Positions 10,048 through 26,174 of a stretch of 64,000 nt of DNA are shown here, piece by piece. Under the pieces are notes generated by a model that did not search any database, had not been told where the DNA came from, and worked only from the letters and a program-made list of their open reading frames with translations. Positions within the stretch are counted from its first letter, which is position 1, and the number at the start of each line of letters is the position of its first letter. The stretch comes from Variovorax sp. UMC13 (lineage in GTDB: Bacteria; Pseudomonadota; Gammaproteobacteria; Burkholderiales; Burkholderiaceae_C): assembly GCF_014170375.1 (NCBI RefSeq), contig NZ_LZZW01000012.1:124001-188000 (forward strand). Direction: 5' to 3'. A program made the position numbers and the translations under genes.

Positions 10048-10749
10048 CTAGAAGCCGCTGAAGCGTGTGAAGTTCTCGACCGGCTCACGCTCGGTGCGCA
10101 CGCGGTTCACCACGGCCGCCGGGTCGGCATAGCCCAGTGCCATGCCGCACAGGACCATCTGCCCGTCCGGGATTTGCAGGGCTTCAGCCAGAAGGCGCGG
10201 GTAAAGGGTCCACGCCATCTGCGAACAGGTATCCAGGCCTCGTGCGCGGGCCGCCAGCATGATGTTCTGTAAGAACATCCCGTAGTCCACCCAACTGCTC
10301 TGCACCATGCGCCGGTCCAAGGTGAAGATCAAACCGACCGGCGCATCGAAGAAGGCAAAGTTGCGTGCATGTTGAGCGCGCATGGCATCCGTATCTCCCT
10401 TGGAGATTCCGACTGCGGCATAAAGAGCGAAACCGCACCGACGCCGCCTGGTCAGGTAGGGCTCGAAGAACTCGGCCGGGTAGATGTCGTATTCGGACTG
10501 GTGCTCTCCCTCTTCATGGTGAAAGGCGTGCAATACACGGTCGCATAGGCGCTTCCTCGCCTCGCCCGCCACGGCAATGACATGCCACGGCTGGGTGTTG
10601 GTGCCACTGGGCGCGCTGGCTGCCACCGACAGAATCTGGGCCACCGCTTCTTGCGACACCGGGGTCGGCAGAAAGGCGCGCACGGAACGACGTTCGCGCA
10701 TCACCGCATCAATCAGCATGTTGCGCAAAGGCACGGCGCAGACAGACAT
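10048..10749 (-). CDS. Nitroreductase-family flavoenzyme
   Basis: 233 aa. FMN-dependent NAD(P)H oxidoreductase fold. The N-terminal RRSVRAFLPTPVS and the SAPSGTNTQPWHV segment are the FMN-phosphate and dimer-interface motifs of the family. WVDYGMFLQNIMLAARARGL and the C-terminal GMALGYADP are also typical. Physiological substrates vary (nitroaromatics, quinones, enones) and cannot be assigned. Unusually, the first 12 codons closely match the 5' end of the acyl-CoA dehydrogenase at 9890 (30 of 36 bases), suggesting a chimeric start. The original start may be the Met at residue 11. It stands alone on the minus strand behind a conserved upstream element also found before the 14331 operon. Confidence 0.9.
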   Translation of the reverse strand: MSVCAVPLRNMLIDAVMRERRSVRAFLPTPVSQEAVAQILSVAASAPSGTNTQPWHVIAVAGEARKRLCDRVLHAFHHEEGEHQSEYDIYPAEFFEPYLTRRRRCGFALYAAVGISKGDTDAMRAQHARNFAFFDAPVGLIFTLDRRMVQSSWVDYGMFLQNIMLAARARGLDTCSQMAWTLYPRLLAEALQIPDGQMVLCGMALGYADPAAVVNRVRTEREPVENFTRFSGF

Positions 10750-10884
10750 TCACTCTCTCCTGGTTGCTGGGCTATTCGGGTGAGCACACCGACATGCCGT
10801 TGCCGAAGAAGCATTCATGCGAATGCATCGATGCCGAACGTCCACGGGTCGTCCCTGGGTGTGCTACCAAGCGGTATTCTGGGC

Positions 10885-10965
10885 ACTCGGCACATACGCG
10901 TCTTGCCCGCCAGTGCATGGCGAGTTGACTTTGTATGCACAAGGCAAAATCCGGTTGACCGCAGC
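10885..10965 (-). promoter_or_regulatory. Conserved upstream element, copy 1 (nitroreductase promoter region)
   Basis: Read on the minus strand this region matches 14101-14185 read on the plus strand. The 33-bp core at 10901-10933 differs at one base. Outside the core the similarity continues over about 80 bp, with CGGTCAACCGG upstream and CGCG(T/C)A downstream. The core contains CAAAGTCAACTCGCCATGCA and a CTCGCC/GGCAAG pair of half-sites. Its proximal end is 152 bp before the nitroreductase start. Both copies point at their downstream gene, so a shared activator site or promoter is likely. An AraC-type regulator gene begins 110 bp away on the other side. Confidence 0.75.
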
Positions 10966-11043
10966 CGGACGCTACATCGTTAGCGGGCCGTTTTCTTGGT
11001 GTAATTTCGGATTCAGCGCCAGCTATCGTTGCTCCCTTTGACC

Positions 11044-12072
11044 ATGTTGAAACCCGTCGTCACTGTTCCTGTTTTTGCCGTGCATGGCCTGCTCGACGGC
11101 GCGCGCAGCAAAGGACTGGCCACCGAGTCCTGGCTGGATGGCGTTCTGGCGCAGGCCCGCATCGCCGAGTCGCTGCTGCATCTGGAGCAGTCGCGTGTGA
11201 CCATAGAGCAATACATCGCACTCTTCAGTGCCGTGAAGAACAGCTTGGACGACGAATGCCTAGGCCATCTACACGGTCGGCCGTTGCGCTGCGGCAGCTT
11301 TGCGCTGATGGCTCGCTCTACGCTCGGGGCCAAGACGCTGGCAGCCGCCTTGCAGCGCGTGAGTGCATCCTTCGCCCTGCTGCAGGACGACGTGGCGCTT
11401 GTGCCCGTCTCTGATGGCTTGCTCAAGGGTGCTGCTCTGGACGTGCGCCACGCCCTGGGCAAACATTCAGACTTCCTGCACGGGCTGCTGTTGCGCGTTT
11501 TCTGGCGTCTGCTGGTATGGCTGCACGGCGGCCGACTGGTGCCCAGAGGGCTCGATTTTGCCTTCGAGCCACCGCCGCGTGCCGCAGACTATGCCCAAAT
11601 CTTCTCGGGCACGTTGCGGTTCGGGCAGGCGCGGTCGGCGGTCTGGTTCGAGGCATCCGCATTCACGCAGCCGATGCGCCGTGACACCGCCGCGCTCCAG
11701 ACCTTTTTGCGTGCCACACCGGGCAACCTGATCGGCCCGCGTCTAATCGAGCGGACAGCCAGCGCGCGGGTGCGCGCGCTATTGCAGCAAGCGTGCCCGG
11801 AGTGGCCCGATCTGACTGTCGCCGCGCAGCGCTTGCACATGTCGGTCAGCGCACTGCAGCGGCATCTGGCCGTGGAGGGCAAGTCCTTTCAGGTGCTGAA
11901 GGACGAGTTACGGCGCGACATGGCGATCGTTCGGTTGACCAGCACCGATGCCGCGCTGAGCGCCATCGCCGCCGAGTTGGGGTTCGCCGACGGCACCGCC
12001 TTCCAGCGGGCCTTCAAGTCATGGACCGGCAGCACGCCAGGCGTCTATCGTTCGCGCACCCAAAAAACGTAG
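11044..12072 (+). CDS. AraC-family regulator with Arabinose_bd-type N-terminal domain
   Basis: 342 aa from the ATG giving MLKPVVTVPVFAVHGLLDGA. An ATG 5 codons earlier is also possible. Residues ~15-200 resemble the effector domain of OruR/ArgR-like AraC proteins (LHLEQSRVTIEQYIALFSAV; RCGSFALMARSTLGAKTLA). The C-terminal ~100 residues hold two helix-turn-helix motifs (LTVAAQRLHMSVSALQRHLA; LSAIAAELGFADGTAFQRAF, then SWTGSTPGVYR). Such proteins usually activate nearby catabolic genes. It is divergent from the nitroreductase, with conserved element copy 1 between them, and convergent with the SDR at 12868. Confidence 0.9.
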   Translation: MLKPVVTVPVFAVHGLLDGARSKGLATESWLDGVLAQARIAESLLHLEQSRVTIEQYIALFSAVKNSLDDECLGHLHGRPLRCGSFALMARSTLGAKTLAAALQRVSASFALLQDDVALVPVSDGLLKGAALDVRHALGKHSDFLHGLLLRVFWRLLVWLHGGRLVPRGLDFAFEPPPRAADYAQIFSGTLRFGQARSAVWFEASAFTQPMRRDTAALQTFLRATPGNLIGPRLIERTASARVRALLQQACPEWPDLTVAAQRLHMSVSALQRHLAVEGKSFQVLKDELRRDMAIVRLTSTDAALSAIAAELGFADGTAFQRAFKSWTGSTPGVYRSRTQKT

Positions 12073-12094
12073 CGCTGCTTCGACGCGGTCGCAC

Positions 12095-12868
12095 TCAAAG
12101 CGACGAGCACAGATGCCCGCCATCCACTGGCACGCAGGCGCCGGTCATCCACGACCCGGCCTCGGTCGCGAACAGCAGGAACAGACCGTTGAGCTCCTCC
12201 GGCTTACCCAGGCGGCGCATCGGGATGCGCTTGATAAGCGCCTTGCCATGGTCGGTATCCCACATGGCATCGGTCATCTCGGTGTCGATGTAGCCCGGCT
12301 CGATGGCATTGACGCGAATGCCGTGGCGCGCCCATTCGAGCGCCAGGCTCTTGGTCATGTGCACGACTGCAGCCTTGGACGTGGCATACAGCATGGCGCC
12401 CGGCATCACGCGTTCGCCCAGGATCGATGCGATGTTGATGACTGAGCCTCCCCGCCCCGCATCCACCCAGCGCTGCGCGGCACGCGCGGCCACCAGCCAC
12501 ACGCCGCGCACGTTGGTCTCCATCAGCGAGTCGAAGTCGGACACAGGCAGCGTGAGCGACAAGGCGTCGTTGGAAGCCCCGGCGTTGTTAACCACCACGT
12601 CGAGGATGGTGCCCGAGGCGTCTATCTCGGCGAAGGCGTCGTCGATGGACTGCTCGGAAGCCACATCCATTTCCAGCACCGTGACCTGAGGCGAACCGAG
12701 CTTTTCGAGTTCCTGGGCGAGTTTGTCGAGCCGCGCCTTGCGCCGCGCCCCAATCACTACCTTGGCCTTGCAACCAGCAGCCAGCCGAGCGAAGTTCTCG
12801 CCCAGGCCCGACGAGGCCCCCGTGACCAGCACCCGCTTGCCTGCCAGCATTGCACCCAGATCCATCAT
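12095..12868 (-). CDS. Short-chain dehydrogenase/reductase
   Basis: 257 aa. NAD(P)-dependent oxidoreductase with Rossmann motif TGASSGLG (about 16-23), NNAG (about 92-95), catalytic Ser in VINIASILGE, YATSKAA (Tyr-x3-Lys) and the PGYIDTEM segment. It ends with VPVDGGHLCSSL as in classical SDRs. An acidic residue after beta-2 is not obvious (IGARRKARLDKL), and the Arg-rich loop suggests NADPH preference, which is an inference. Substrate unknown. In a beta-oxidation-type cluster a hydroxyacyl-CoA or alcohol substrate is plausible. It is flanked by two AraC genes, convergent with the first and divergent from the second. Confidence 0.93.
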   Translation of the reverse strand: MMDLGAMLAGKRVLVTGASSGLGENFARLAAGCKAKVVIGARRKARLDKLAQELEKLGSPQVTVLEMDVASEQSIDDAFAEIDASGTILDVVVNNAGASNDALSLTLPVSDFDSLMETNVRGVWLVAARAAQRWVDAGRGGSVINIASILGERVMPGAMLYATSKAAVVHMTKSLALEWARHGIRVNAIEPGYIDTEMTDAMWDTDHGKALIKRIPMRRLGKPEELNGLFLLFATEAGSWMTGACVPVDGGHLCSSL

Positions 12869-13151
12869 CGTCTCCTTGCATCTTCAGTTCGCCGTCGATG
12901 CCGGGAGGTTAGCGCAGGGCCGCTCGGCTGCGGGGTTGCCTCGCTCCCCCATCCGTCGAAAGAGGTGCCTTGTCAGTTGATCGAGACCATCCGTCATTGC
13001 CGCGCCAAGCACCGCTGCCTACGATTGCCTGTATGCCTTGGGTACCCTGAGCGCCGCACGAAAGCACGCCACGGTGTCGACGCTCCGGTCCCGATGGGCT
13101 GCGGCGTCTGGGGGCAGATTCAGGAGACGACAAGTGCTGCAACAGTCACCC

Positions 13152-14183
13152 ATGGAATGGTCCATCGACCATGCGCCCATCGAGGGCAGGATAGATGCGA
13201 CGGAAGCGATCCTCAAGGACTCCTTCCAGCGCTGGAGTCTTTCCTCCCCGGCGAAGCCTGCTGCATTCCAGGCGAAGTTGCGGCGACACGAACTCGCCGG
13301 AGCCTCCTTGGTATGCACCGTGACCGGTGCTTGCGTCGAGCAGTCTCCTCCTGGACATTCGTCATTCGACGATGAGTTCTGCCTGGGGCTGCAGCTGAAC
13401 CTGAGCGGCCGAGTACAGTTGCAGCAGTGGGACACGCCAATCTGCGAGGGCGACATGTTCCTCTGGCGTACCGATCAGCGGCAAGACTATGAGGTGCTGG
13501 AACGAACCCACAGCGTGTCGTTGATGATTCCCTGGCAGCTCATGCGCGAGCATCTACCGGGCCGCAAGCAGCCGCCCGCAGCCTGCCGCATTGACAGTCA
13601 CACAGGCGTGGGCTCACTGCTCAGCCAACACCTGATGGGGTTGGCAAAGGAGATCGGCGCCGTGCCGCCCTCCGCCCACGTCGCCCTTTGCCGCACGGTG
13701 ATCGGGCTTCTGGACATTGCGCTGCCAGAGCCGGAGAGCGCCACTCGATTCACGGCCATGGCCGCGTTGCGCGAACGAGTACTTGCCTACATCGCCCAGC
13801 ATTTTCAAGAGGATGACCTGAGTCCGGCACGCATCGCCGCGGCGCACGGTATTTCACTGCGTTACCTTCATGCGCTGTTTGCGCAGGGCGATACCACGGT
13901 GGTCGGCCACATCCTGGAAAGCCGATTGCAAGCGTGCTGGCGGACACTCGTTGACCCGGTCTGCCGGCATCTGCAGGTCTCGGCGATCGCCTTTCACTGG
14001 GGCTTCAACTCCACCAGCCATTTCTGCCGCGCATTCAAACAACGCTTTGGAGTGTCGCCCAGCGATGCACGCGGCATGACTGCTCACGGCTCCGCCATCG
14101 GCCCGGTCGAGTCAGCCGGGCTTTCCCTTGCACACGCAAAGTCAACTTGCCATGCACTGGCGGGCAAGACGCGCACGGGCTGA
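13152..14183 (+). CDS. AraC-family regulator (AraC-binding-like N-terminal domain)
   Basis: 343 aa if started at MEWSIDHAPIEGR. The frame is open 38 codons further upstream (from 13038), but that extension is Arg-rich and unlike the family. The N-terminal half (DEFCLGLQLNLSGRVQLQQW; CEGDMFLWRTDQRQDYEV) is the cupin-like effector domain seen in AraC/XylS-type activators. The C-terminal helix-turn-helix pair is PARIAAAHGISLRYLHALFA and VSAIAFHWGFNSTSHFCRAF, then FGVSPSDARG. The 3' end overlaps conserved element copy 2, which precedes the dehydrogenase operon, making this protein the best candidate to control that operon. Confidence 0.88.
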   Translation: MEWSIDHAPIEGRIDATEAILKDSFQRWSLSSPAKPAAFQAKLRRHELAGASLVCTVTGACVEQSPPGHSSFDDEFCLGLQLNLSGRVQLQQWDTPICEGDMFLWRTDQRQDYEVLERTHSVSLMIPWQLMREHLPGRKQPPAACRIDSHTGVGSLLSQHLMGLAKEIGAVPPSAHVALCRTVIGLLDIALPEPESATRFTAMAALRERVLAYIAQHFQEDDLSPARIAAAHGISLRYLHALFAQGDTTVVGHILESRLQACWRTLVDPVCRHLQVSAIAFHWGFNSTSHFCRAFKQRFGVSPSDARGMTAHGSAIGPVESAGLSLAHAKSTCHALAGKTRTG

Positions 14184-14185
14184 AT
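14101..14185 (+). promoter_or_regulatory. Conserved upstream element, copy 2 (before the 14331 catabolic operon)
   Basis: Plus-strand counterpart of the element at 10885-10965. Its core at 14137-14169 reads CAAAGTCAACTTGCCATGCA followed by CTGGCGGGCAAGA and differs from copy 1 by one base. The proximal end is 162 bp before the ATG at 14331, compared with 152 bp for copy 1. It overlaps the last codons of the upstream araC gene. CTTGCC and GGCAAG inside the core form an inverted pair with 11 bp between them. Confidence 0.75.
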
Positions 14186-14330
14186 GCCGACCATATGCCC
14201 TGGACAGACTGAGAACGCAGAGATTCGACGCTTCGCCCGCCCCGTTGTGGGTATGCGGGCATGACCCGGGGCCGCATCGCTGGCCAAGTTTTCAAACCTT
14301 CATCGTACAAACCTTCTGAGGAGCGCTCCC

Positions 14331-15476
14331 ATGCTGCCGCAATTGCACCGTCAACCCTGGATGGACAGCGACATCGAGACCTTTCGCGACCAGGTGCGCC
14401 GCTACATCGCCGCCGAGATGGCTCCGCACCTGCCCGCTTGGCGCGAACAGGGCTACGTCCCGCGCGAGACCTGGCGGCCCTTCGGCGAGATGGGGTTCAT
14501 GCTGCCCGAAATGCCCGAAGCCTACGGCGGCACCGGGGCCAGCATTGCCTACCAGCTGGTGGTACAGGATGAGTTGACCAGAGCGGAAATGCCCAACAAC
14601 GTCCAGGTGAACAGCATCGCTGCGCACTACATCATGGACTACGGCACCGAGGAGCAGAAGCAGCGCTGGCTGCCCAAGCTGAGCAGCGGCGAGATGCTGC
14701 TCGGCATTGCGATGACCGAACCCGGCTGCGGGACGGACCTCAAGGCCATCGCCACCCGCGCGCGCCGTGATGGCGACCACTACGTGATCGACGGTGCCAA
14801 GACCTTCATCACCAACGGCTACACCTGCAATCTGCTGATTGTGGTCGCACGCACCGGCGAGGCGGGCAGCCGAGGCCTTTCGCTGATCGTGGTGGAGACC
14901 GAGAACCTGCCAGGGTTCCGCGTGGGCCGCCTGCTCGACAAGATCGGCCTGCATGCGTCGGACACCGCCGAACTCTTCTTCGACGGGGTGCGCGTGCCGG
15001 TCGATCAAGTCCTGGGGGGCGTCGAAGGGCTTGGTTTCAAGCAGTTGATGGGCCAGTTGCCCTACGAACGCATGACCATCGCCGTGCCTGCGGCGGCCAT
15101 CATCGACCGGGCCCTGGAACTCACCGTCGAATACACGAAGGAGCGCAAGATTTTCGGCGCACCGCTGTTCGAGATGCAGACCACGCGCCACAAGCTGGCC
15201 GAGATCGCCACCACCGCTCACGTGGTGCGCACCTTCGTCAACGACTGCATCCAGCGGCTGCTGGACGGAAAGCTCGACGCCGAAGCCGCGTACATGGCCA
15301 AGTGGTGGTGCAGCGAGCAGCAGTGCCGCGTGGTGGACGAGTGCCTGCAGATGTTCGGCGGCTACGGCTACATGTACGAATACCCGATCGCGCGCATGTA
15401 CACCACCTCGCGCGTGCAGAAGATCTACGGCGGCGCGAACGAGGTCATGAAAGAACTGATTGCGAGGAAGCTGTGA
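14331..15476 (+). CDS. Acyl-CoA dehydrogenase (medium-length, FadE/AcdA type)
   Basis: 381 aa, standard length. First gene of the rightward catabolic operon and preceded by GAGGAGCG. Motifs include GIAMTEPGCGTDLKAIATRA (FAD/substrate region), KTFITNGYTCNLLIVVART, YTKERKIFGAPLFEMQTTRH, a MFGGYGYMYEYPIARMYTTS region and the C-terminal KIYGGANEVMKELIARKL. The usual catalytic Glu position in the IYEGT/IYGGxxE segment reads GGANEVMKE. In many family members the base is a Glu about here or in helix G, so activity cannot be judged from this alone. Electrons would go to ETF, encoded leftward. The stop overlaps the GTG start of the CoA-transferase gene. Confidence 0.93.
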   Translation: MLPQLHRQPWMDSDIETFRDQVRRYIAAEMAPHLPAWREQGYVPRETWRPFGEMGFMLPEMPEAYGGTGASIAYQLVVQDELTRAEMPNNVQVNSIAAHYIMDYGTEEQKQRWLPKLSSGEMLLGIAMTEPGCGTDLKAIATRARRDGDHYVIDGAKTFITNGYTCNLLIVVARTGEAGSRGLSLIVVETENLPGFRVGRLLDKIGLHASDTAELFFDGVRVPVDQVLGGVEGLGFKQLMGQLPYERMTIAVPAAAIIDRALELTVEYTKERKIFGAPLFEMQTTRHKLAEIATTAHVVRTFVNDCIQRLLDGKLDAEAAYMAKWWCSEQQCRVVDECLQMFGGYGYMYEYPIARMYTTSRVQKIYGGANEVMKELIARKL

Positions 15477-16540
15477 ACGCCTCGCACATGCTGCAAAAGC
15501 CACTGCACGGCGTCCGTGTGGTGGAGTTCGAAGGGATCGGGCCGGGCCCGCTGGCCGCCATGATGCTGGCCGACATGGGTGCCGAGGTGATTGCGCTGAC
15601 ACGGGCCGAGCAGGCCGCCGGGGCGCAGCCGCTGGGCGGGGCGGCGGCCAACCCGCTGCACCGGGGCAAGACGGTCGAGATCACCGACCTGAAGTCGCCC
15701 GGCGGCAAGGCGCGCGCCCTGGATCTGATCGGCCAGTCCGACGTTCTGATCGAAGGCTTTCGCCCCGGCGTGATGGAACGGCTGGGGTTCGGCCCCGCCG
15801 AATGCGCGGCGCGCAACCCCAAGCTGGTCTATGGCCGGATGACGGGCTGGGGCCAGGACGGCCCGCTCTCCCGGGCCGCTGGCCACGACCTGAACTACGT
15901 GGCGCTGACGGGCCTGCTGTCGCTGTCGGCCCGCAAGGGGCAGATGCCCATCGTGCCGCCCTCGGTGCTCGGGGACGCGGCCGGGGCGCTGGGCATGGCC
16001 TTCGGTGTCGCCTGCGCGCTGGTCGATGCGCGCGGTAACGGTAGGGGCAGTGGCCGCGGCCGGGTCGTGGATGCCGCCATCATCGACATCGTGGCCATGA
16101 TGGGCACGCTGGTGCATTGGATTCGCGCCAATGGGCAGATCGACGGCACGAAGCCGAGCCCGTTTCACGATTCGCCGTTCTATGACGTGTACGCCTGTGC
16201 CGACGGCGGCTTCATCAGCCTCGCGGTGGTGGAGCCCGCGTTCCACGCACTGCTGCTGTCGAAGCTGGGCCTGACGGACGTGAACCCTGCCGACCAGTAC
16301 GACACGACGACGTGGCCAGCGCTGAAGGAGCGCATTGCGGCCCTCATCCGCAGCCAACCCAGGGCGCACTGGTGCGCGTTGCTCGAAGGCAGCGACGCCT
16401 GCTTCGCGCCCGTGCTCAGCCTGGCCGAGGCGGCGCGGCATCCGCACAACGCGGCACGGGGTATCTACCAGACCACCCCCTCCGGCGCCATCGAGGCGGC
16501 CCCGGCCCCACGGTTCCAGGCACTCAACGCAACCACATAG
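15473..16540 (+). CDS. Class III CoA-transferase (CaiB/BaiF family)
   Basis: 355 aa using the GTG at 15473, which overlaps the dehydrogenase stop and follows GCGAGG. An internal ATG at 15488 is the alternative. Family III CoA-transferases move CoA between carboxylates and some act as 2-methylacyl-CoA racemases. Signatures are LHGVRVVEFEGIGPGPLAAM, LADMGAEVIALTR, SDVLIEGFRPGVMERLGFGP with AARNPKLVYGRMTGWGQDGP, and GHDLNYVALTG. FRPGVMERLG and GHDLNY are typical of the AMACR (2-methylacyl-CoA racemase) branch, as is the later Asp in the DAAIID segment. Racemase is therefore a real alternative. Either role fits catabolism of a branched carboxylic acid. Confidence 0.88.
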   Translation: MNASHMLQKPLHGVRVVEFEGIGPGPLAAMMLADMGAEVIALTRAEQAAGAQPLGGAAANPLHRGKTVEITDLKSPGGKARALDLIGQSDVLIEGFRPGVMERLGFGPAECAARNPKLVYGRMTGWGQDGPLSRAAGHDLNYVALTGLLSLSARKGQMPIVPPSVLGDAAGALGMAFGVACALVDARGNGRGSGRGRVVDAAIIDIVAMMGTLVHWIRANGQIDGTKPSPFHDSPFYDVYACADGGFISLAVVEPAFHALLLSKLGLTDVNPADQYDTTTWPALKERIAALIRSQPRAHWCALLEGSDACFAPVLSLAEAARHPHNAARGIYQTTPSGAIEAAPAPRFQALNATT

Positions 16541-16551
16541 GAGACCAGAGA

Positions 16552-18219
16552 ATGACCAACACCACCAAGATCGTGCGCGGCTGCCCGTCTACCTCGGGCA
16601 ACGACCGCCAGCTCAACACCACGACGCTCATCCGGCACGCCGCGCGCACCCACGGAGACCAGGAGATCGTCTACCGCACGCCCGATGGCGGCTGGGACCG
16701 CTACACCTATGCCGACTGCTACGCGCGCGTCTGCCGCAGCGCCAATGCGCTGCGCGCGCTCGGTGTCGAACCTGGCGACCGGGTCGGCATCCTGGACTGG
16801 AACAGCCGACGCCATTTCGAGCTGTACTGGTCCATCCCTGGCCTGGGCGCGGTCATGCTGCAGATGAACCTGCGCCTGGGCGCCGAAGACCTGGGCTACG
16901 TGGTCGGCCACAGCCAAGTGTCCTACGTATGCGTGGACGAATCATTGCTGCCCATCGCCGAATCCGTCGCGGCGAATTCGCCCCAGATCAAGGGCTGGAT
17001 CGTCATGACCGACAAGCCGCTGGACCAGATTAAGACCACGCTGAAACCGCTGCTGCACTACGAAGACCTGCTGGCCGCCGCCGACCCCAAGATCGACTGG
17101 CCCGAGATCGACGAAACCTCGGCCTACAGCGCCTGCTACACCACCGGCACCACGGGCAAGCCCAAGGGCGTGTACTACTCGCACCGCTGCATCTACCTGC
17201 ACTCCACGGGCATGGCCACCAATCTGGGCATGACGCTGAGCGACTGCGTGATGCTCATCACGCCCATGTTCCACGGGCAATGCTGGGGCCTGCCGCAGGC
17301 CGCCACGCTGCTGGGCGACAAGATCGTGCTGCCGGGCCGCTATGTCGCCGAGGACACCAAGCCCCTGGTTGACGCCATGATCGCCGAGGGCGTGACGGTC
17401 GCCAACGGCGCACCGGCCATCTTTCAGCCCATGCTGCAGTACATCGAAACGATGCCGGTCAAGCCGGACTTCAGCAGCATGCGCATGCTGTCCGGCGCCT
17501 CCGAGCCGCCGCTGTCGATGATGATCGGTTTCTACAAACTCACCGGTGCCGAGGTGGTCCACGGCTACGGTGCCACCGAAGCCACGACGCTGGTGACCAT
17601 GAACCGCCTCAAGTCCACGCTCAAGAAGCGCCTGACCGAGGAAGAGCGCTGGAACCTCAAGCGCAAGCAGGGTCTGGTGCTGACCGGGGTGGACATCCGC
17701 ATCCTCGATGCCGATGACAAGGACTTGCCGCATGACGGAAAGTCGGCGGGCGAGATTTGCGTGCGCGGCCCCTGGATCACGGCCAGCTACCACGACATGC
17801 CCGATTCCGCAGACCGCTTCCTGGAGGGTGGCTGGTGGCGCTCGGGCGATGTCGGCACGGTGGACGAGAACGGCTACCTCAAGGTCACCGACCGCATCAA
17901 GGACGTGATCAAGAGCGGCGGCGAATGGATTTCTTCCATCGACATGGAAAACCTGCTCATGGGCCACCCCGCCGTGCGCGACGCCGCCGTGGTCGGCGTT
18001 CCGCATCCGAAGTGGCAGGAGCGGCCGCTGGCCCTGGTGGTGCTCAAGCCCGGCCAGCAGGCGACCCAGGAACAACTGAAGGAGCACCTGGGCAGCGCCT
18101 TCGCCAAGTGGCAGTGGCCGGATCAGGTTCTGTTCGTCGAGGCCATCCCCAAGACCAGCGTCGGCAAGCTCGACAAGAAGCGCATACGCGTCGAGCAGGC
18201 AGACCGCTATTCCGCCTGA
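16552..18219 (+). CDS. AMP-forming acyl-CoA ligase (fatty-acid type)
   Basis: 555 aa, starting after GGAGACCAGAG. Adenylate-forming enzyme activating a carboxylic acid with ATP and CoA. P-loop YTTGTTGKPKGVYYSH, core motif VHGYGATEATTLVTM, hinge region WWRSGDVGTVDENGYLKVTD and KVTDRIKDVIKSGGEWISS, and the C-terminal catalytic Lys in IPKTSVGKLDKKRIR are all present. The GEWISS form is shared with medium/long-chain and DmdB-like ligases. The substrate is not deducible, but its position between a CoA-transferase and a thiolase fits activation at the top of a beta-oxidation pathway. Confidence 0.94.
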   Translation: MTNTTKIVRGCPSTSGNDRQLNTTTLIRHAARTHGDQEIVYRTPDGGWDRYTYADCYARVCRSANALRALGVEPGDRVGILDWNSRRHFELYWSIPGLGAVMLQMNLRLGAEDLGYVVGHSQVSYVCVDESLLPIAESVAANSPQIKGWIVMTDKPLDQIKTTLKPLLHYEDLLAAADPKIDWPEIDETSAYSACYTTGTTGKPKGVYYSHRCIYLHSTGMATNLGMTLSDCVMLITPMFHGQCWGLPQAATLLGDKIVLPGRYVAEDTKPLVDAMIAEGVTVANGAPAIFQPMLQYIETMPVKPDFSSMRMLSGASEPPLSMMIGFYKLTGAEVVHGYGATEATTLVTMNRLKSTLKKRLTEEERWNLKRKQGLVLTGVDIRILDADDKDLPHDGKSAGEICVRGPWITASYHDMPDSADRFLEGGWWRSGDVGTVDENGYLKVTDRIKDVIKSGGEWISSIDMENLLMGHPAVRDAAVVGVPHPKWQERPLALVVLKPGQQATQEQLKEHLGSAFAKWQWPDQVLFVEAIPKTSVGKLDKKRIRVEQADRYSA

Positions 18220-18262
18220 CACCCGCTTTGCATGACCCCCAGTTTCTTACCAGGAGAACCAC

Positions 18263-19444
18263 ATGAATGACCATGAACCCGTGATCGTCGGCGCGCTGCG
18301 CACCCCCGTGGGCAAGCGCGGCGGGCGCCTGCAAAAATGGCACCCCGTCGATCTGATGGCCGAGACGCTGCGCCAGCTGGTCGAACAGTCCGGCGTCAAC
18401 CCCTCCGATCTGGACGACGTGATCGTCGGCTGTGTGCTGCAGTGGGACCAGCAGCATGGCAACCTGGCCCGCCATGCCGTGCTGGCGGCGGGGCTGCCCG
18501 AATCCGTCCCGGCTGTGACGGTGGACCGGCAATGCGGCTCCGGCCAGCAGGCGGTGAGTTTTGCCGTGCATGGCATCCAGGCGGGGGCCTACCAGCTGGC
18601 CATCGGCGGGGGGGTGGAGTCGATGTCGCAGGCGCCGCTGCCGCCGTCGTTCAAGCCCGGCGCGCCGCTGGGCGCGCAATACAGCCCGCGCGAACTGGCG
18701 CGCTACCAGGACAACCCGCTGATACCGCAAGGCGTTTCGTCGGAGTTGCTGAACTCGCGCTTCGGCCTGACCCGTGAAGTCCTGGATGCATCCGCCGTGC
18801 GCAGCCACAAGCGCGCCGCCGAGGCGATTCAGGCCGGTCGCATCAAGGATCAACTGGTGCATCTGACCGAGGACCCGGCCGACCCGAACAGCCCCGTCGT
18901 CGCCGCCGACGAGGGCGTGCGCGCCAACCCCGACCCCGAGAAGCTGGCCACGCTGAAAGCCGTGTTTGCCGCCAACGGCACCACCACCGCCGGCAACTCG
19001 TCGCAGATCAGCGACGGCGCCGCCGCACTGCTGATCGCCAGCCGTGCCTATGCCAAAAAGCATGGCCTCAAGCCGCGTGCGCGCTTCGTCAGCACCGCCG
19101 TGGCCGCCGCCGACCCGGTGATCCAGTTCACCGCCGTGCTCGACTCCACCCGCAAGGCATTGAAGGAATCGGGCCTGACCATCAACGACATCGACCTGTT
19201 CGAAGTCAACGAGGCTTTCGGCGGCGTGCCGCTGATGTTCCAGCAGGAATTCGGCATCCCGGACGACCGCCTGAATGTCAACGGCGGCTCGATGGCCATT
19301 GGCCATCCGCTGGGTTCCACCGGCGCGCGCATGCTCACCGACCTGCTGTACGAACTGGAGCGCCGGGGCGGCCGCTATGGCCTGCAAACCATCTGCGAGG
19401 CTTCGGGCACGGCCAACACCACCATCATCGAGCGGCTTGCATGA
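18263..19444 (+). CDS. Thiolase (acetyl-CoA C-acyltransferase)
   Basis: 393 aa, standard length, preceded by AGGAGAACCAC. Thiolytic cleavage of a 3-oxoacyl-CoA. The active-site Cys lies in TVDRQCGSGQQAVSFAVHGI (about residue 93). The two catalytic His/Cys regions are NVNGGSMAIGHPLGSTGAR (His of GHP) and QTICEASGTANTTIIERL (second Cys). NEAFGGVPLMFQ is the family NEAF motif. It acts in the cytosol after the hydratase and SDR encoded next. It overlaps the enoyl-CoA hydratase gene by 4 bp. Degradative rather than biosynthetic function is inferred from the operon. Confidence 0.95.
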   Translation: MNDHEPVIVGALRTPVGKRGGRLQKWHPVDLMAETLRQLVEQSGVNPSDLDDVIVGCVLQWDQQHGNLARHAVLAAGLPESVPAVTVDRQCGSGQQAVSFAVHGIQAGAYQLAIGGGVESMSQAPLPPSFKPGAPLGAQYSPRELARYQDNPLIPQGVSSELLNSRFGLTREVLDASAVRSHKRAAEAIQAGRIKDQLVHLTEDPADPNSPVVAADEGVRANPDPEKLATLKAVFAANGTTTAGNSSQISDGAAALLIASRAYAKKHGLKPRARFVSTAVAAADPVIQFTAVLDSTRKALKESGLTINDIDLFEVNEAFGGVPLMFQQEFGIPDDRLNVNGGSMAIGHPLGSTGARMLTDLLYELERRGGRYGLQTICEASGTANTTIIERLA

Positions 19445-20241
19445 GCGGGGCCACCATGAGCGAAGCCAGTGAAGTGCTCGTCAGCCGTGACGGCGCCGTC
19501 GTCACCCTGACCATCAACCGCCCGCGTGCGAAGAACAGCCTGAACCGCGCGGTGTTCGATGGCCTGTCCGCACAGCTTGCGCAACTGCGCGACGACGATG
19601 TCGTGCGGGTCGTCGTCATCACCGGCGCCGAGGGCGTGTTTTGCGCGGGCGCCGACATCACGGCCTTTGAAGTGCTGCGCGCCGCGCCGCTGCTGGGCGA
19701 CCGCTCGGCGACCGGCTGGGACTTCTTTGCGGCGCTGGGGCGCTTCCCCAAGCCCGTCATCGCGGCGGTGGAAAAGGTCGCGCTGGGCGGCGGCACGGAA
19801 CTGGCGCTGGCCTGCGACATCGTGATCGCGGGCGAGTCCGCCAAGTTCGGCGTGCCGGAAGTCAAGCTGGGCGCCATCCCCGGTGCGGGCGGCACCCAGC
19901 GCTTGATTCATGCCATCGGCAAGTCCAAAGCCATGGCGCTGTTGCTGACCGGCGATTTCATGGATGCCCGCAAGGCTTGCGACGTCGGCATCGTCGCCGA
20001 AGTGACGGCGGACGGCCAGGCCCTGCCGACGGCGTTGGCGATGGCCAGCCGGATTGCGGCCAATTCGCCGCTGGCCGTGGCGCTGGCCAAGGATGCGGCC
20101 CTGGCCAGCTTTGAAACCCCGCTCGCGCAGGGCCTGGAGCATGAGAAGCGCAATTTCGTTGTCGCTTTGCGTTCGGCCGACAACCTGGAAGGGCAAGCGG
20201 CATTCCTGGGCAAGCGCACCCCCAAATTCACCGGCCAATAA
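19441..20241 (+). CDS. Enoyl-CoA hydratase/isomerase (crotonase family)
   Basis: 266 aa, ATGA overlap with the thiolase. Crotonase fold, with oxyanion-hole segments FCAGADITAFEVL (about 62-74) and ALGGGTELALACDIVIAGE (about 115-133). The catalytic-Glu region FGVPEVKLGAIPGAGGTQRL holds Glu140, and the residue corresponding to the second Glu of classic hydratases can also be placed in GGGTEL. Both acidic residues expected for hydration therefore appear present, though isomerase or ring-cleaving roles are possible. It follows dehydrogenation and precedes the SDR in a beta-oxidation order. Confidence 0.94.
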   Translation: MSGATMSEASEVLVSRDGAVVTLTINRPRAKNSLNRAVFDGLSAQLAQLRDDDVVRVVVITGAEGVFCAGADITAFEVLRAAPLLGDRSATGWDFFAALGRFPKPVIAAVEKVALGGGTELALACDIVIAGESAKFGVPEVKLGAIPGAGGTQRLIHAIGKSKAMALLLTGDFMDARKACDVGIVAEVTADGQALPTALAMASRIAANSPLAVALAKDAALASFETPLAQGLEHEKRNFVVALRSADNLEGQAAFLGKRTPKFTGQ

Positions 20242-20270
20242 CGCCTGTCTGTCATCTTCAAGGAAAAACC

Positions 20271-21053
20271 ATGCAACTCAATTCCGGCATTTCTGCCGTC
20301 ATCACCGGGGGGGCTTCCGGCCTGGGGGCCGCCACGGCCCGGCGTTTGGCCAGCCATGGCGTCAAGGTCGCCATCTTCGACATGAACGAAGCCGTCGGCC
20401 AGGCGTTGGCCAGCGAGCTTGGCGGCGTTTACTGCAACGTGGACGTAACGTCCGAGGAGCAGGTGGACGCAGCCTTCGCCAAGGCCCGCGCCGCGATCGG
20501 GCAGGAACGCGTTTTGGTCAACTGCGCCGGCACGGCCGACGCCGTCAAGACTGTCAGCCGCGATCGGAAAACGGGTGAGATCCGCCCGAGTGCGGTGGAT
20601 CGCTTCAACCGCATCGTGCAGATCAACCTGGTGGGCACGTTCCGCTGCATTGCCAAATCGACGGCGGGCATGCTGGCGCTGGAACCGCTGGCCGACGGCG
20701 ACCGCGGCGTCGTGGTCAACACCGCTTCGGCCGCTGCGGTGGACGGCCAGGTCGGCCAGGCCAGCTATGCCGCCAGCAAGGCCGCCGTCATGGGCATGAC
20801 CTTGCCGATCGCACGCGACCTGATGGACGAAGGCGTTCGCGTCAACACCATCCTGCCGGGGATCTTCGGCACCCCCTTGCTGCTGGCCCTGCCGGACAAC
20901 GTCAAGCAAGCGCTGGCGGCCAGCGTGCCCTTTCCCAAGCGTTTGGGCGACCCCGATGAATTCGCGCAGGCCGTCGAGTTTCTGGTCACTTGCGGCTACA
21001 TGAACGCCGAGTCCATCCGCGTGGATGGGGCCCTCCGCATGGCGCCGCGCTGA
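20271..21053 (+). CDS. SDR-family 3-hydroxyacyl-CoA dehydrogenase (HSD10-like)
   Basis: 260 aa with AAGGAAAAACC before the ATG. Rossmann motif TGGASGLGAATARRL (about 13-27), an Asp after beta-2 (IFDMNEA) indicating NAD, NCAG (about 85-88), catalytic Ser in VNTASAAAVDGQVG and YAASKAA. The insertion KTVSRDRKTGEIRPSAVDRF and the C-terminal AESIRVDGALRMAPR resemble type II 3-hydroxyacyl-CoA dehydrogenases, which oxidise L-3-hydroxyacyl-CoAs and various hydroxysteroids or short branched-chain substrates. Its place after the hydratase fits that step. A 147-bp non-coding gap follows before the GST gene. Confidence 0.9.
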   Translation: MQLNSGISAVITGGASGLGAATARRLASHGVKVAIFDMNEAVGQALASELGGVYCNVDVTSEEQVDAAFAKARAAIGQERVLVNCAGTADAVKTVSRDRKTGEIRPSAVDRFNRIVQINLVGTFRCIAKSTAGMLALEPLADGDRGVVVNTASAAAVDGQVGQASYAASKAAVMGMTLPIARDLMDEGVRVNTILPGIFGTPLLLALPDNVKQALAASVPFPKRLGDPDEFAQAVEFLVTCGYMNAESIRVDGALRMAPR

Positions 21054-21200
21054 CGCCTTGAACCCTCGAAGAGCTGCGCATGATGTCGTCAACCCGAGAA
21101 AGCCGCGCGACGGGAGCCTGGAATGTCAGGGGGCCGGCCACGGGTGACTGCAAGTCATGGCGTGATGTCGATCCGCAGCTCGCCAGGAGCGTCATTCGCC

Positions 21201-21932
21201 ATGATTGACCTGCATTACGCACCGACACCCAACGGCTGGAAGATCTCCATCCTGCTTGAGGAACTCGGACTTCCCTATACGGTGACTCCGGTCAACATCC
21301 GCGCTGGCGAGCAATTCAAGCCGGAATTTCTGGCGATCAGCCCGAACAACCGCATTCCGGCCATAGTGGACCATGCGCCGCTCGACGGCGGCGGCCCGCT
21401 TTCGGTGTTCGAGACCGGCGCCATCCTGGTCTATCTGGCCCAGAAAACCAACCGCTTCCTGCCCACGGATCTGCGCGGCTTCACCCAAACCATGCAATGG
21501 GTGATGTGGCAGGTGAGCGGACTGGGGCCCATGCTCGGCCAGCATGGTCACTTTGCGCTGTATGCGCAGGAAAAGATCGCCTACGCGATCGAGCGTTACC
21601 GCGACGAAGCGGCGCGGCTGTATCGCGTGCTCGATACCCAGCTCGGCAAGACCGGCGCCTATGTCGCCGGCGCCGAGTACGGCATCGCCGACATCGCCTG
21701 CTTTCCCTGGGCCATGACCCACAAGGCGCAAGGCTTCACGCTCGACGATTTTCCCCACATCAAGCGCTGGTACGCCAGCGTGCGCGCCCGGCCGCAAGTG
21801 CAGGCGGGACTGGCGGTCGGCAAATTCGAGAAGGAGCCGCTGGACGACGAAGCAAGAAAGAACATGTTCGGCCAGAAGGCCAAGGAGATGGCACACCGCA
21901 TGTCGCCCAACAACCAGCGAGAAACACCATGA
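21201..21932 (+). CDS. Glutathione S-transferase (Ure2p/YfcG-like)
   Basis: 243 aa from MIDLHYAPTPNGWKISILLE. Twenty-six upstream codons are open but unlike the family. Thioredoxin-like N-terminal domain (about 1-85) with APTPNGWKISILLEELGLPY, FLAISPNNRIPAIVDH (the NGRIPA-type cis-Pro loop) and SVFETGAILVYLAQK (Glu-Thr/Ser GSH-binding pair). The C-terminal all-helical domain contains YVAGAEYGIADIACFPW. Such enzymes act as disulfide reductases or conjugate GSH to electrophiles. In a catabolic operon it may deal with a reactive enoyl-CoA or epoxide-like intermediate, which is an inference. Overlaps the next gene (ATGA). Confidence 0.93.
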   Translation: MIDLHYAPTPNGWKISILLEELGLPYTVTPVNIRAGEQFKPEFLAISPNNRIPAIVDHAPLDGGGPLSVFETGAILVYLAQKTNRFLPTDLRGFTQTMQWVMWQVSGLGPMLGQHGHFALYAQEKIAYAIERYRDEAARLYRVLDTQLGKTGAYVAGAEYGIADIACFPWAMTHKAQGFTLDDFPHIKRWYASVRARPQVQAGLAVGKFEKEPLDDEARKNMFGQKAKEMAHRMSPNNQRETP

Positions 21933-22537
21933 TCGAATTCTTCTTCGACTGCTCCAGCCCCTGGACCTATCTCGCCTTCCACAACATCCAGCCGCTCGCC
22001 GACGAACTGGGCGTCGAGGTCACATGGCGGCCCATCCTGGTCGGCGGCATCTTCAACACGATCAATCCGACCGTCTACGCCTCGCGCGAGACGCCGGTGC
22101 CGCAGAAGGCCCGCTACCTGAAAAAGGATCTGGCAGATTGGGCCCGCTCGACGGGGCTTGCGATCAAGATGCCGCCGACGGTGTTTCCCGTCAACAGCGT
22201 GAAGGCGATGCGCGGCTGCGTCTGGCTCGGCAACGACATGGTGCCGTTTGCCCGCGCCATATTTGAAGCCTATTGGGGCGAGGACCAGGACATCTCGCAG
22301 GATTCGGTGCTGACCCATGTGTGCCAGCGCATTGGCATCGATCCCGCCCCATTCTTTGCAGGCATCGGCGAGCAGGCGATCAAGGATCAGCTCAAGGCCA
22401 ACACCGATGAGGTGGTCGCGCGCGGCGGCTTTGGCTCGCCGACCATCTTTGTGGACAAGACCGACATGTATTTCGGCAACGACCGCATGCCGCTGATCCG
22501 CGAAGCCGTGCTGCGCCTGCAAGGGAAGACGGCCTGA
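21929..22537 (+). CDS. DsbA-like / 2-hydroxychromene-2-carboxylate isomerase family protein
   Basis: 202 aa. Thioredoxin-fold DsbA/kappa-GST protein. The N-terminal FFFDCSSPWTYLAFHNIQ holds the active-site position (Ser-Pro-Trp) of HCCA isomerases and kappa-class GSTs. The insert RPILVGGIFNTINPTVYASR and the C-terminal ARGGFGSPTIFVDKTDMYFG (cis-Pro loop) also match. HCCA isomerases use GSH to isomerise an aromatic-ring cleavage intermediate, but the family is wide, so aromatic catabolism cannot be concluded. Translationally coupled to the GST gene, suggesting a GSH-dependent pair. Confidence 0.88.
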   Translation: MIEFFFDCSSPWTYLAFHNIQPLADELGVEVTWRPILVGGIFNTINPTVYASRETPVPQKARYLKKDLADWARSTGLAIKMPPTVFPVNSVKAMRGCVWLGNDMVPFARAIFEAYWGEDQDISQDSVLTHVCQRIGIDPAPFFAGIGEQAIKDQLKANTDEVVARGGFGSPTIFVDKTDMYFGNDRMPLIREAVLRLQGKTA

Positions 22538-22592
22538 TACCGCAAGCAGGGTTCACCCATCCATTCATCTCACCACCACCACAGGAGACATC

Positions 22593-23783
22593 ATGCAAAA
22601 AAGACAATTCATCACCATGCTTTCCGGCGCCATGCTGACCGGCGTTTCTGGCCTGGTCCGCGCGCAGGGCGCAGGCACCCCGGGCGTGACGGATCGCGAG
22701 ATCAAGATCGGCTCGACCGGGCCGCTCAGCGGCCCGGCCGCAGGCTATGGCGTCGTCGGCAAGACCATGTCTGCATGGTTTGACCTGGTCAACGCCGAGG
22801 GCGGCGTGAATGGGCGCCAGCTCAAGCTGGTGCTGGCCGACGATGGCTACAGCCCGCCGAAAACCCTGGAGCAATCGCGCCGCCTGGTGGAGCGCGATCA
22901 GGTGGCTTTTCTCGCGGCGCAGATAGGCTCGTCCACTGGGCTGGCGTCGCGCAGCTATCTCAACAACGCCAAAGTACCGCAACTCTTCGTTTCGTCCGGC
23001 TCTGCCACGTGGCTGGATGATGCGGCTAAGTTCCCCTGGAGCATGGGCTGGCTGCCCCTGTACACCGACGAAGGGCGCATCCTGGCCAGGCACATCCTGC
23101 AGACGCGGCCCAACGCGAAGATCGCCATGTTCTACCAGAACGACGACGCCGGCAAGGATGTGCTGCGTGGCGTGAAGGAGGTTCTGGCTGCCGCCGGGAA
23201 GAAGCTCATCAGCGAAGAGTCGCATGAAGTGTCGGATCCGACGGTGGACTCGCAGATCGTCTCCATGCATGCCTCGGGCGCGGACGTGCTGGTGGCGTGG
23301 GGTTCGCCCAAAGCCACCCTCCAGTCGCTGCGCAAGACCCACGACATCGGCTGGCGCCCGGCCATCTACATCAACCCGAGCGCATCTTCGGTGCCCGCGG
23401 TGCTGACTCCGGTGGGGCTGGACAAGGTCAAGGGCATCATGAGCGCCGCGTTCCTCAAGGATCCGAGCGATCCGACCTGGAAGGACGACCCTGGTGTCCT
23501 GGCCTGGCATGCCTTCATGGACAAATACAACAAAGGCGCGGCCAAGGAGTACCTCACCGTGCTCGGTGCCTGCCTTGGGCAAGTGACAGTGCAGTTGCTC
23601 AAGCAGTGCGGCAACGACCTCTCGCGCGAGAACATCATGCGGCAGTCGCGCCGCCTGGACATGGATTTGCCCATGATGCTGCCGGGCCTGCGTGTCAAGA
23701 CCAGCGACGCCCGCCCTCACCCGATACCGGACATGCGCATCCAGCAGTTCGACGGCACGAGCTGGAAGGTGATGCCGTCCTGA
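22593..23783 (+). CDS. Liv-type ABC transporter periplasmic substrate-binding protein (cargo 1)
   Basis: 396 aa, preceded by ACAGGAGACATC. The signal peptide is MQKRQFITMLSGAMLTGVSG followed by LVRAQG, probably cleaved near residue 25. The mature protein is a type I periplasmic binding protein (GVTDREIKIGSTGPLSGPAA; NAEGGVNGRQLKLVLADDGY; KTLEQSRRLVERDQVAFLAA). Family members bind branched amino acids, short carboxylates, amides or aromatic acids. Beside ligase and beta-oxidation genes the ligand is likely a carboxylic acid substrate of this pathway. It heads the five-gene importer module LivK-G-F-H-M. Confidence 0.94.
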   Translation: MQKRQFITMLSGAMLTGVSGLVRAQGAGTPGVTDREIKIGSTGPLSGPAAGYGVVGKTMSAWFDLVNAEGGVNGRQLKLVLADDGYSPPKTLEQSRRLVERDQVAFLAAQIGSSTGLASRSYLNNAKVPQLFVSSGSATWLDDAAKFPWSMGWLPLYTDEGRILARHILQTRPNAKIAMFYQNDDAGKDVLRGVKEVLAAAGKKLISEESHEVSDPTVDSQIVSMHASGADVLVAWGSPKATLQSLRKTHDIGWRPAIYINPSASSVPAVLTPVGLDKVKGIMSAAFLKDPSDPTWKDDPGVLAWHAFMDKYNKGAAKEYLTVLGACLGQVTVQLLKQCGNDLSRENIMRQSRRLDMDLPMMLPGLRVKTSDARPHPIPDMRIQQFDGTSWKVMPS

Positions 23784-23799
23784 CGGGGCGAGCGCAGCG

Positions 23800-24567
23800 A
23801 TGGAACCCATTCTTTCCGTACGCGACCTGACGATCCGCTTCGGCGGTGTCGTCGCGCTGGACGCCTTCTCGATGGACGTGCCCGAGGGCTGCATCTTCGG
23901 CCTGATCGGGCCGAACGGCGCTGGCAAGACGACCTGCTTCAACTGCATCAGCGGCCTGTACCGGCCCACCCACGGCAGCGTGCGCTTCGGCCAGGCCGAG
24001 TTGACGCGCCTGCCGCGCCACGGCGTGGCACGGCTGGGTCTGAGCCGCACCTTCCAGAACGTGGCGCTCTACCCCTCGCTCACGGTGCGCGAAAACGTGA
24101 TGGTGGGTGCGCACGCGCGGCTGCCGGTGTCGATGCTGGGTGCCGCGCTGCGCTCGCGCGCCGTCCGTGCCGCCGAGGAAGAAATCGCGCACTCGGCTGA
24201 CGCGGCCCTGGCCACGCTGCGGCTGTCCGACTATGCCGACCGGGGCGTGGCGGAACTGCCGGTGGGCATCCAGCACCGCGTGGAAATCGCGCGGGCGCTG
24301 GTGACGCGGCCCAAGCTGCTGCTGCTTGACGAACCCGCCGCTGGCCTCACCGCTGGCGAGGTCGATGAACTGCGCGACGTGCTGCTGCGCCTGCACGAGG
24401 AATTGAAGCTGACCATGGTGATCGTGGAGCACAACATGCGCTTCGTGATGAAGACCTGCTCCGACCTCGCGGTACTGAGCTTTGGCCGCAAGCTCGCCCA
24501 GGGCTCGCCCGAGGAAGTGGCCAACAACGACGCCGTGCTCGATGCCTATCTGGGAGGTGTGCTGTGA
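23800..24567 (+). CDS. Liv-type ABC transporter ATPase, LivG subunit (cargo 1)
   Basis: 255 aa. Cytoplasmic ATPase with Walker A LIGPNGAGKTTCFNC (about 37-51), LivG-typical LSRTFQNVALYPSLTV (Q-loop), a signature region ELPVGIQHRVEIARALVTRP (the canonical LSGGQ is replaced by LPVGIQ, common in this subgroup) and Walker B LLLLDEPAAGL with the His switch VIVEHNMRFVM. Pairs with LivF (4-bp overlap) to energise import through LivH/LivM. Confidence 0.95.
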   Translation: MEPILSVRDLTIRFGGVVALDAFSMDVPEGCIFGLIGPNGAGKTTCFNCISGLYRPTHGSVRFGQAELTRLPRHGVARLGLSRTFQNVALYPSLTVRENVMVGAHARLPVSMLGAALRSRAVRAAEEEIAHSADAALATLRLSDYADRGVAELPVGIQHRVEIARALVTRPKLLLLDEPAAGLTAGEVDELRDVLLRLHEELKLTMVIVEHNMRFVMKTCSDLAVLSFGRKLAQGSPEEVANNDAVLDAYLGGVL

Positions 24568-26172: not shown

Positions 26173-26174
26173 GC

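Follow-up and report, generated by a model that had tools for sequence, protein, structure and literature searches.

The window, the 64,000-nucleotide stretch of Variovorax sp. UMC13 analysed here (contig NZ_LZZW01000012.1, positions 124,001 to 188,000), contains two copies of an 85-bp element, one before a nitroreductase-family gene and one before a catabolic operon that begins with an acyl-CoA dehydrogenase gene, acdA. Genes for two AraC-family regulators, AraC1 and AraC2, lie between them. We consider the element to be an activator-dependent promoter at the end of a relay in an older regulon (AraC1 to AraC2 to the two element copies), and assign this reading a probability of about 0.65; binding, activation and an inducer are what we infer from the sequence. 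AraC2, whose gene lies directly before copy 2, is the most likely binder of both copies and would switch on the acdA operon and a unit of nitroreductase, acyl-CoA dehydrogenase and electron transfer flavoprotein (ETF) genes. AraC2 itself would be expressed from an AraC1-type promoter at 12970–13025, under AraC1. The evidence consists of the repeats, their conservation, their co-occurrence with AraC2, an AraC1-type site before AraC2, and matching boxes at two distant AraC2 homologues. The features first needed are as follows (L numbers denote loci and G numbers genomes).

10875..10959, minus strand: element copy 1, before the nitroreductase gene; conserved in L064, L117 and L023.
14111..14195, plus strand: element copy 2, before the acdA operon.
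11044..12072, plus strand: AraC1 regulator (PF12625 and HTH_18), proposed master activator.
13134..14183, plus strand: AraC2 regulator, FeaR-like (PF14525 and HTH_18), proposed activator at the element.
12970..13025, plus strand: predicted AraC1-type promoter, its two boxes starting at 12970 and 12991 (21-bp period).

In a repeat search, the two copies (10875–10959, minus; 14111–14195, plus) aligned over 85 bp without gaps at 80 % identity. A 36-base core is common to both with one mismatch (10897–10932, minus; 14138–14173, plus); with a Y at one position it matches both copies with no further mismatch, and it had 0 matches in 100 shuffles. An earlier note on this DNA had described a shared core before the nitroreductase gene (minus) and the acyl-CoA dehydrogenase operon (plus), each copy pointing at its gene and two AraC-type genes lying between, and all of this was confirmed in the window. 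Counted from the end of GCAAGAC, the nitroreductase ATG is 150 bases away and the acdA ATG 160, in place of the 152 and 162 bp given there; the 10-bp difference is identical. However, the importance it attached to this difference as a helical turn was not borne out. Over the loci, the distances are 150–151 (nitroreductase) and 159–161 (acdA), but 80 in Acidovorax L065, so helical phasing of the element to the gene is not conserved. Copy 2 overlaps the 3′ end of AraC2, whose stop is at 14183, and is thus not purely intergenic.

A search of the 7.1-Mb own genome with the element gave 27 matches at E≤10. The two copies were found at 1e-57 and 1.6e-15, the third-best match was chance-sized (E=0.062, 23 bp), and no third copy was found in that genome. 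The exact 22-base core pattern was present in one of 369 class-level genomes, the window's own. With copy 2 as the query, three of 101 relatives' genomes were matched at E≤0.001, namely the own genome, the identical G031, and G073, the last via a 33-bp piece of the AraC-tail part (6.9e-4). The plasmid search gave no match for copy 1, and for copy 2 a Sphingobium record and a Deinococcus match at E=0.8. When related loci were searched, as had been suggested, each copy preceded the same gene in the lineages read. A mobile promoter, miniature inverted-repeat transposable element or recombination site would fit two sharp-edged copies and a copy 1 outer edge that coincides with a junction (10959/10968) variable between lineages, but there are only two copies rather than several dispersed ones, the exact 22-base core pattern occurs in the own genome alone among the 369, and in the lineages read the same genes lie downstream. 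We regard this explanation as highly improbable, and the mobile promoter proposed in the earlier note is unsupported. A dispersed repeat was likewise rejected, because the own genome has two copies and, of the 369 genomes, only that one has the exact core; an ordinary scattered repeat does not fit these counts. At the copy 1 outer edge, the lineage-specific junction differs in length: 8 bases in the window and 185 bases in L023 (1365–1551), but about 8.8 kb with several other open reading frames (ORFs) in Hydrogenophaga G459 (G459:C1:432058-440849; L064 from 3570).

The boxes and putative core promoters of the two copies are listed below. Those of copy 1 were read from the sequence and have analogous boxes at distant homologues; those of copy 2 were read from the sequence.

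10924..10939, minus strand: copy 1 distal box TGCATACAAAGTCAAC (TGCA-N6-GTCA).
10902..10917, minus strand: copy 1 proximal box TGCACTGGCGGGCAAG (TGCA-N6-GGCA).
10876..10904, minus strand: copy 1 putative core promoter AAGACG-N17-CAGAAT, a weak consensus match.
14131..14146, plus strand: copy 2 distal box CACACGCAAAGTCAAC, weaker, with CACA instead of TGCA.
14153..14168, plus strand: copy 2 proximal box TGCACTGGCGGGCAAG.
14166..14194, plus strand: copy 2 putative core promoter AAGACG-N17-GACCAT, a weak consensus match.

In copy 1, TGCATACAAAGTCAAC and TGCACTGGCGGGCAAG have a period of 22 bp and the proximal box runs into the −35-like AAGACG. The element would then have an XylS/Pm-like layout, in which a pair of AraC-family boxes with a 22-bp period adjoins or overlaps the −35 and the −10 lies at the far end. 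The repeat period at Pm is 21 bp, compared with 22 bp in the element. XylS is also an AraC-family activator, and the element reads TGCA-N6-GGCA and TGCA-N6-GTCA beside the −35. In the published account (PMC5481539), the XylS boxes at Pm of the TOL plasmid pWW0 are two direct repeats, with box A (TGCA) and box B (GGTA) separated by 6 bp. In copy 1 the spacing and box A agree with this pattern; the element differs in that its B box is GKCA, not GGTA, and in its target genes. Box-to-box identity within the element is low (8/16 in copy 1 and 7/16 in copy 2). An intrinsic terminator or attenuator would account for one terminator-like hairpin called within copy 1 (CGCCAGTGCATGGCG then AGTTGACTTT), but this hairpin lies on the other strand from the gene, shuffled sequences average 0.8 such calls and none was called at copy 2, making this explanation barely credible.

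Complete copies of the element came only from loci that also have AraC2, and the AraC2-bearing loci read contain the element. In eight loci whose stretches include acdA but lack AraC2 (L051, L080, L107–L111 and L116), no element was found. Six of these were fetched via AraC1, and L051 and L080 were reached via acdA. AraC1 homologues (52–76 %) are present in all eight, in the six as a consequence of how they were selected. The AraC1 search returned 17 rows, and neighbourhoods were taken for all nine rows below 98 % and for G1341. AraC2 was not found in the whole Acinetobacter plasmid (L051) or, beyond a 30 % match, in the whole G192 genome (L080), and for the other loci its absence was judged on 20-kb stretches; tblastn matches of <38 % identity were omitted from the locus comparison table. 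A probably cognate AraC-family gene adjoins the element and is co-inherited with it, a half-element Sphingobium record without AraC2 aside. However, copy 2 is physically joined to AraC2, and joining alone would yield this co-occurrence.

A test on distant homologues, which is free of the linkage between AraC2 and copy 2, scored tandems of the 16-base window boxes out of 32. The tandem near the Caballeronia AraC2 homologue (46 %) reached 27 and that near the G238 homologue (37 %) reached 25, whereas none of 835,612 control positions reached 24 and two reached 23. The control background includes 12 of the 17 loci L029–L045 (weak AraC helix-turn-helix matches). The Caballeronia tandem stands some 90 bp ahead of a short ORF, which occupies the spot of an annotated gene for an acetylacetone-cleaving protein in a related Paraburkholderia cluster; a repeat search of that stretch alone, with no window probe, also found the tandem (18 nt, 83 %, 22-bp spacing). 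In G238 the tandem is directly 3′ of the AraC gene on the same strand, as in the window. The Paraburkholderia homologue (48 %) gave 22/32 in its first stretch, not above controls, and the pre-chosen promoter of its acetylacetone-cleaving gene gave 21/32 at 22-bp spacing, a score equalled in 18 of 2,230 same-size control pieces. Self-similarity of the boxes, which needs no probe, was 13/16 for Caballeronia, a level reached by 1.3 % of 1,382 control pieces, and by this measure no other site stands out. These comparisons support the uncharacterised shared activator site proposed in the earlier note, and AraC2 is its likely regulator. Two further observations concern these loci. In G238 (L128 3115–5989), the next gene after the 37 % homologue and the tandem site apparently encodes a methyl-accepting chemotaxis protein. 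In Caballeronia, a second, weaker tandem (22/32; L123 4756, plus strand), with AAnGTCAACTC in common with the window element, is positioned some 180 bp ahead of the AraC2 homologue itself, where it could possibly serve autoregulation.

The core also contains a palindrome, GCCA-N5-TGGC, and a LysR gene (5457–6383) is located in the same cargo, which leaves room for another regulator, this LysR protein or a host factor, to bind the palindrome. Caballeronia and G238 share the tandem boxes but not the palindrome, and L110 and L111 have the LysR gene at 97 % identity but yielded no element. LysR was rejected as the regulator because it is present without the element, and a regulator of either kind acting at the palindrome is unlikely.

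The second part of the proposed relay concerns the site before AraC2, which the earlier note had missed. On the 3′ side of the two AraC1-type boxes is TTGCCG (12997–13002)-N17-TACGAT (13020–13025). A TA...T hexamer at exactly 17 bp is found in 21 of the 23 listed AraC1-type sites from the window and its relatives, many of them orthologous copies. A position weight matrix (PWM) trained only on AraC2-less loci scored the window site at 47.5 (at 12972), the next best position in the 64 kb at 5.3, and the best position in six one-strand shuffles at 10.2. No second good match was found in the own genome (next E=0.036). In the window the site is found only before AraC2, and it precedes AraC2 in all five AraC2-bearing loci read, which represent four lineages (the window, L081, L113, L023 and L065). 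Four of the five have no other good match in the stretch read; the Acidovorax region (L079) has two more (46.6 and 25.0).

In the AraC2-less loci the same type of site is found elsewhere. It precedes acdA in six of the eight (in L107 with one intervening ORF, seemingly for an ABC substrate-binding protein; not in L080 or L116), and it lies ahead of ACAD2, the acyl-CoA dehydrogenase gene of the nitroreductase unit, in all five with a close ACAD2. In L107 it is directly before ACAD2, and in L051 (annotated), L109, L110 and L111 (mutually alike ORFs) an MFS-type gene intervenes. No AraC1-type site was found before the 51 % ACAD2 of L114. A site ahead of ACAD2 was seen only in relatives without AraC2. 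In L080, L114 and L116, which have AraC1 homologues of 52–56 %, the best PWM match (18.5–21.6) adjoins the AraC1 gene, and for this reason the site was assigned to AraC1; in L115 the match in the corresponding place scored 6.9, which is background level. Judged by this co-occurrence, the tandem site is most likely AraC1's. A site of the first regulator's type is thus found before the second regulator's gene, at 12970–13025, and its position upstream of AraC2 suggests a cascade. A third AraC1-type site was seen in AraC2-less L051 (5870), L109 (9227) and L110 (9057), in each case on the minus strand; it precedes an annotated MBL-fold hydrolase gene in L051 and an ORF like that gene in L110.

The same matrix bears on whether both operons are driven by AraC1 bound at the element, with AraC2 a bystander. 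AraC1 is encoded next to copy 1, and a homologue is present in the genome of each element-bearing lineage read, except that none was found in the 8.7-kb Sphingobium record. However, the best PWM scores at the element are −20.7 (copy 1) and −22.9 (copy 2), compared with 33–51 for the training sites, and the eight element-less acdA loci, fetched as described above, also have AraC1 homologues. AraC1 was rejected as the element binder on these scores, and we consider its direct control of both operons very unlikely.

The related-locus search with AraC2 found 34 loci, 17 of them with a close relative (L012–L028). AraC2 is 100 % identical in 14 of the 17, and both element copies are present in all 14, but these loci are near-identical and hence uninformative on constraint. 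The informative lineages are Hydrogenophaga L022/L064/L081 (G459) with the near-identical L113/L117 (G1341), a Hydrogenophaga metagenome-assembled genome (L023), and Acidovorax L027/L065 (G458). Where independence matters, the near-copies L113/L081 (99.988 %) and L127/L123 (same sites) were counted as one lineage. Seven distinct copies from four lineages align. Acidovorax L065 agrees with the window at 75 of the 85 positions of the element (88 %). Values for the surrounding DNA in this comparison are 63 % for the 38 bases of the AraC2 tail directly upstream, 29 % for the leader 3′ of the element (39 of 135 bases kept, most deleted), 89 % for the first 300 bases of acdA, 90 % for the SDR gene, 83 % for the AraC2 core and 75 % for AraC2 third codon positions (229/307). 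The element is conserved on a par with coding sequence and above its flanks. A 1-bp deletion within the Acidovorax core shifts the frame of the AraC2 tail, so it is the DNA that is conserved and not the protein tail. In the Sphingobium L050 plasmid record (8.7 kb), the downstream half of the element is kept and the acdA genes are 88–90 % identical. In this Sphingobium yanoikuyae record (at 929–1752), an IS6100 transposase gene lies just before the onset of similarity, inside the element core, and the acdA operon is without upstream boxes.

Copy 1 could also be an idle remnant without function, left when the 3′ end of AraC2 was duplicated: in L023 it can still be translated into an AraC2-tail-like peptide, and the similarity of the two copies over 85 bp suggests homology. 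Its core is, however, unchanged in the window, L064 and L023, although these lineages are only 2–5 % diverged, and in G459 copy 1 remains with the nitroreductase gene despite the approximately 8.8 kb that separate it from AraC1. We view a functionless copy 1 as distinctly unlikely.

A number of observations count against an AraC2-controlled promoter. The −10 hexamers CAGAAT (copy 1) and GACCAT (copy 2) are poor, as expected of an activator-dependent promoter but equally of no promoter, and a default-threshold consensus promoter scan made no call at either copy or at the AraC1-type site. The copy 2 distal box lacks TGCA and reads CACA. Among the nine AraC2-homologue neighbourhoods, six do not exceed the control-chunk maximum of 23: the Paraburkholderia first stretch (22), Tistrella (20), Rhodococcus (20), two from Hydrogenophaga G459 (21 and 23) and E. 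coli feaR (20). As the distant sites were found with the element as the probe, the box consensus is partly circular, and only match strength and position are independent. Self-similarity was 12 for G238 (5.8 % of controls), 12 in another register for Paraburkholderia, and a negligible 9 for the second Caballeronia site. A 40-bp element PWM was not decisive on the distant loci (−0.6 and −2.1 for Caballeronia, against −7.5 to −12.0 in four shuffles, but also −2.4 for AraC2-less L110). In the nearer Hydrogenophaga loci, the element is 95–98 % identical and the neighbouring genes 95–98 %, so that this comparison, with no excess conservation, adds little. Finally, L050 keeps half an element although no AraC2 was found in its 8.7 kb. 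The AraC1 tree places the Acidovorax AraC1 with that of the AraC2-less loci, so the pairing of regulators is not strictly co-inherited and the two can be exchanged separately.

With AraC2 as the likely activator, the two types of locus can be compared as two wirings of the same genes. When AraC2-bearing and AraC2-less loci are aligned, the edges of DNA similarity coincide with the start codons or lie no more than 24 bp from them (14307–14330 for acdA and 9889–9901 for ACAD2). Upstream of both genes is an AraC1-type promoter block in one type of locus and an element-bearing block in the other. Because the AraC1-type site precedes both operons in most AraC2-less relatives, AraC2 and its promoter look like a spliced-in relay. 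In the acdA tree the AraC2-type loci, including Sphingobium L050, form one group (99/98), and rooting on L080 and L116 makes this group derived, which is a midpoint root and suggestive only. We give an even chance to the following history. AraC2 with its own operator would have been spliced between the older AraC promoter and the start codon of the catabolic operon, and the operator would also have come to head the nitroreductase–ACAD2–ETF unit. A one-step regulon would so have become a two-step cascade, with both wirings extant and the new form spread between genera on a mobile element.

The cargo (approximately 7149–20180, about 13 kb) is 97.6–100 % identical at the DNA level across several genera in L012–L021, L024–L026 and L028, except that L017 is only 91 % identical after 16.4 kb and L015 is a 7-kb contig. 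Records with identical AraC2 include Delftia, Bordetella, Pseudacidovorax, Diaphorobacter, Comamonas, Variovorax, Pseudorhodoferax, Xenophilus and Azospirillum. Variovorax sp. Root473 is another carrier of this cargo. The near-identity indicates very recent horizontal spread, in which the wiring moved as a unit. AraC2 homologues were found in four of 399 order-level genomes at 1e-40 (the own genome, two identical and G238), in only the own and two identical among 398 phylum-level genomes at 1e-35, and in 276 records, few of them examined, in a wider plasmid list. By Pfam, the cargo adjoins TraG-like, T2SSE, DUF3363, DUF2840, S26 peptidase and tyrosine integrase genes, and the surrounding integrative and conjugative element (ICE) looks Tn4371-like. 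The hallmarks of that family are a family integrase, Trb/TraG transfer genes and a TTTTTCAT-like attachment repeat. The likeness here lies in the integrase and transfer genes beside the cargo, as judged by Pfam. According to PMC2789088, Tn4371-family ICEs have a common scaffold and differing accessory genes.

A cascade of the proposed kind is known from TOL, where the first regulator positively controls an AraC-type second regulator that drives the catabolic operon (XylR to xylS to Pm; PMC5481539). The window would resemble it in having a regulator that acts on the AraC-type second regulator of a catabolic operon, but here both regulators are of the AraC family and relatives show an apparent one-step form. 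The best NCBIfam match of AraC2 is FeaR, the E. coli phenylethylamine/tyramine regulator, at 129.9 bits, below the 199-bit cut-off of NF007243, so that AraC2 does not qualify as a FeaR equivalog. No tandem boxes above controls were found in the 10-kb E. coli feaR region, and the literature search yielded nothing usable on FeaR binding sites. The AraC1-type site can be compared with the ARG box of P. aeruginosa ArgR, which according to PMC10963909 consists of tandem 16-bp boxes beginning TGTC with a 5-bp spacer (21-bp period), the spacing being variable in P. alloputida. Both have 16-bp boxes beginning TGTC, in tandem, with a 21-bp period, but the consensus differs after TGTC. While a Pm-like promoter and a TOL-like cascade are known kinds, no published account of this rewiring or gene set was found in literature searches aimed at both, and the circuit is apparently undescribed in the literature searched. 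It offers a concrete predicted regulator–operator pair for a FeaR-like AraC protein, and the TGCR-N6-GKCA-like tandem box with a period of 21–22 bp may hold for some distant AraC2 homologues. The loci also provide what look like natural before and after forms of regulatory rewiring at the same operon pair, and the pathway substrate should be easier to find once it is clear which regulator to relieve.

The remaining genes around the element are as follows.

10048..10749, minus strand: nitroreductase-family gene, first of the minus unit (PF00881, E=9.2e-34).
8109–9890, minus strand: ACAD2, acyl-CoA dehydrogenase (Pfam).
7335–8108, minus strand: ETF beta (Pfam).
6389–7333, minus strand: ETF alpha (Pfam).
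5457–6383: LysR gene in the cargo, on the minus side after ETF alpha (Pfam).
12095..12868, minus strand: SDR gene between AraC1 and AraC2 (family scan).
14331..27179, plus strand: catabolic gene row, beginning with acdA at 14331–15476 (family scans).

No terminator-like site was called on the minus strand between 6300 and 11060, and transcription from the nitroreductase promoter probably reads on into ACAD2, ETF beta and ETF alpha. Shared wiring of the nitroreductase and the catabolic operon, as the earlier note had it, is plausible, but its reach is probably wider, taking in nitroreductase, ACAD2 and the ETF genes. The AraC2 start is backed by an ATG in the same place in L027. The SDR gene between the regulators was not seen as a separate gene in the AraC2-less stretches; it was seen in AraC2-bearing L065, L079, L081 and L113 and aligned in L023. 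On the plus side, acdA is followed by genes for a family III (CaiB-type) CoA-transferase, AMP ligase, thiolase, enoyl-CoA hydratase (ECH) and SDR, then GST, a DsbA-like protein and a branched-chain-type ABC transporter, and gene order and spacing suggest that the whole row from 14331 to 27179 is co-transcribed.

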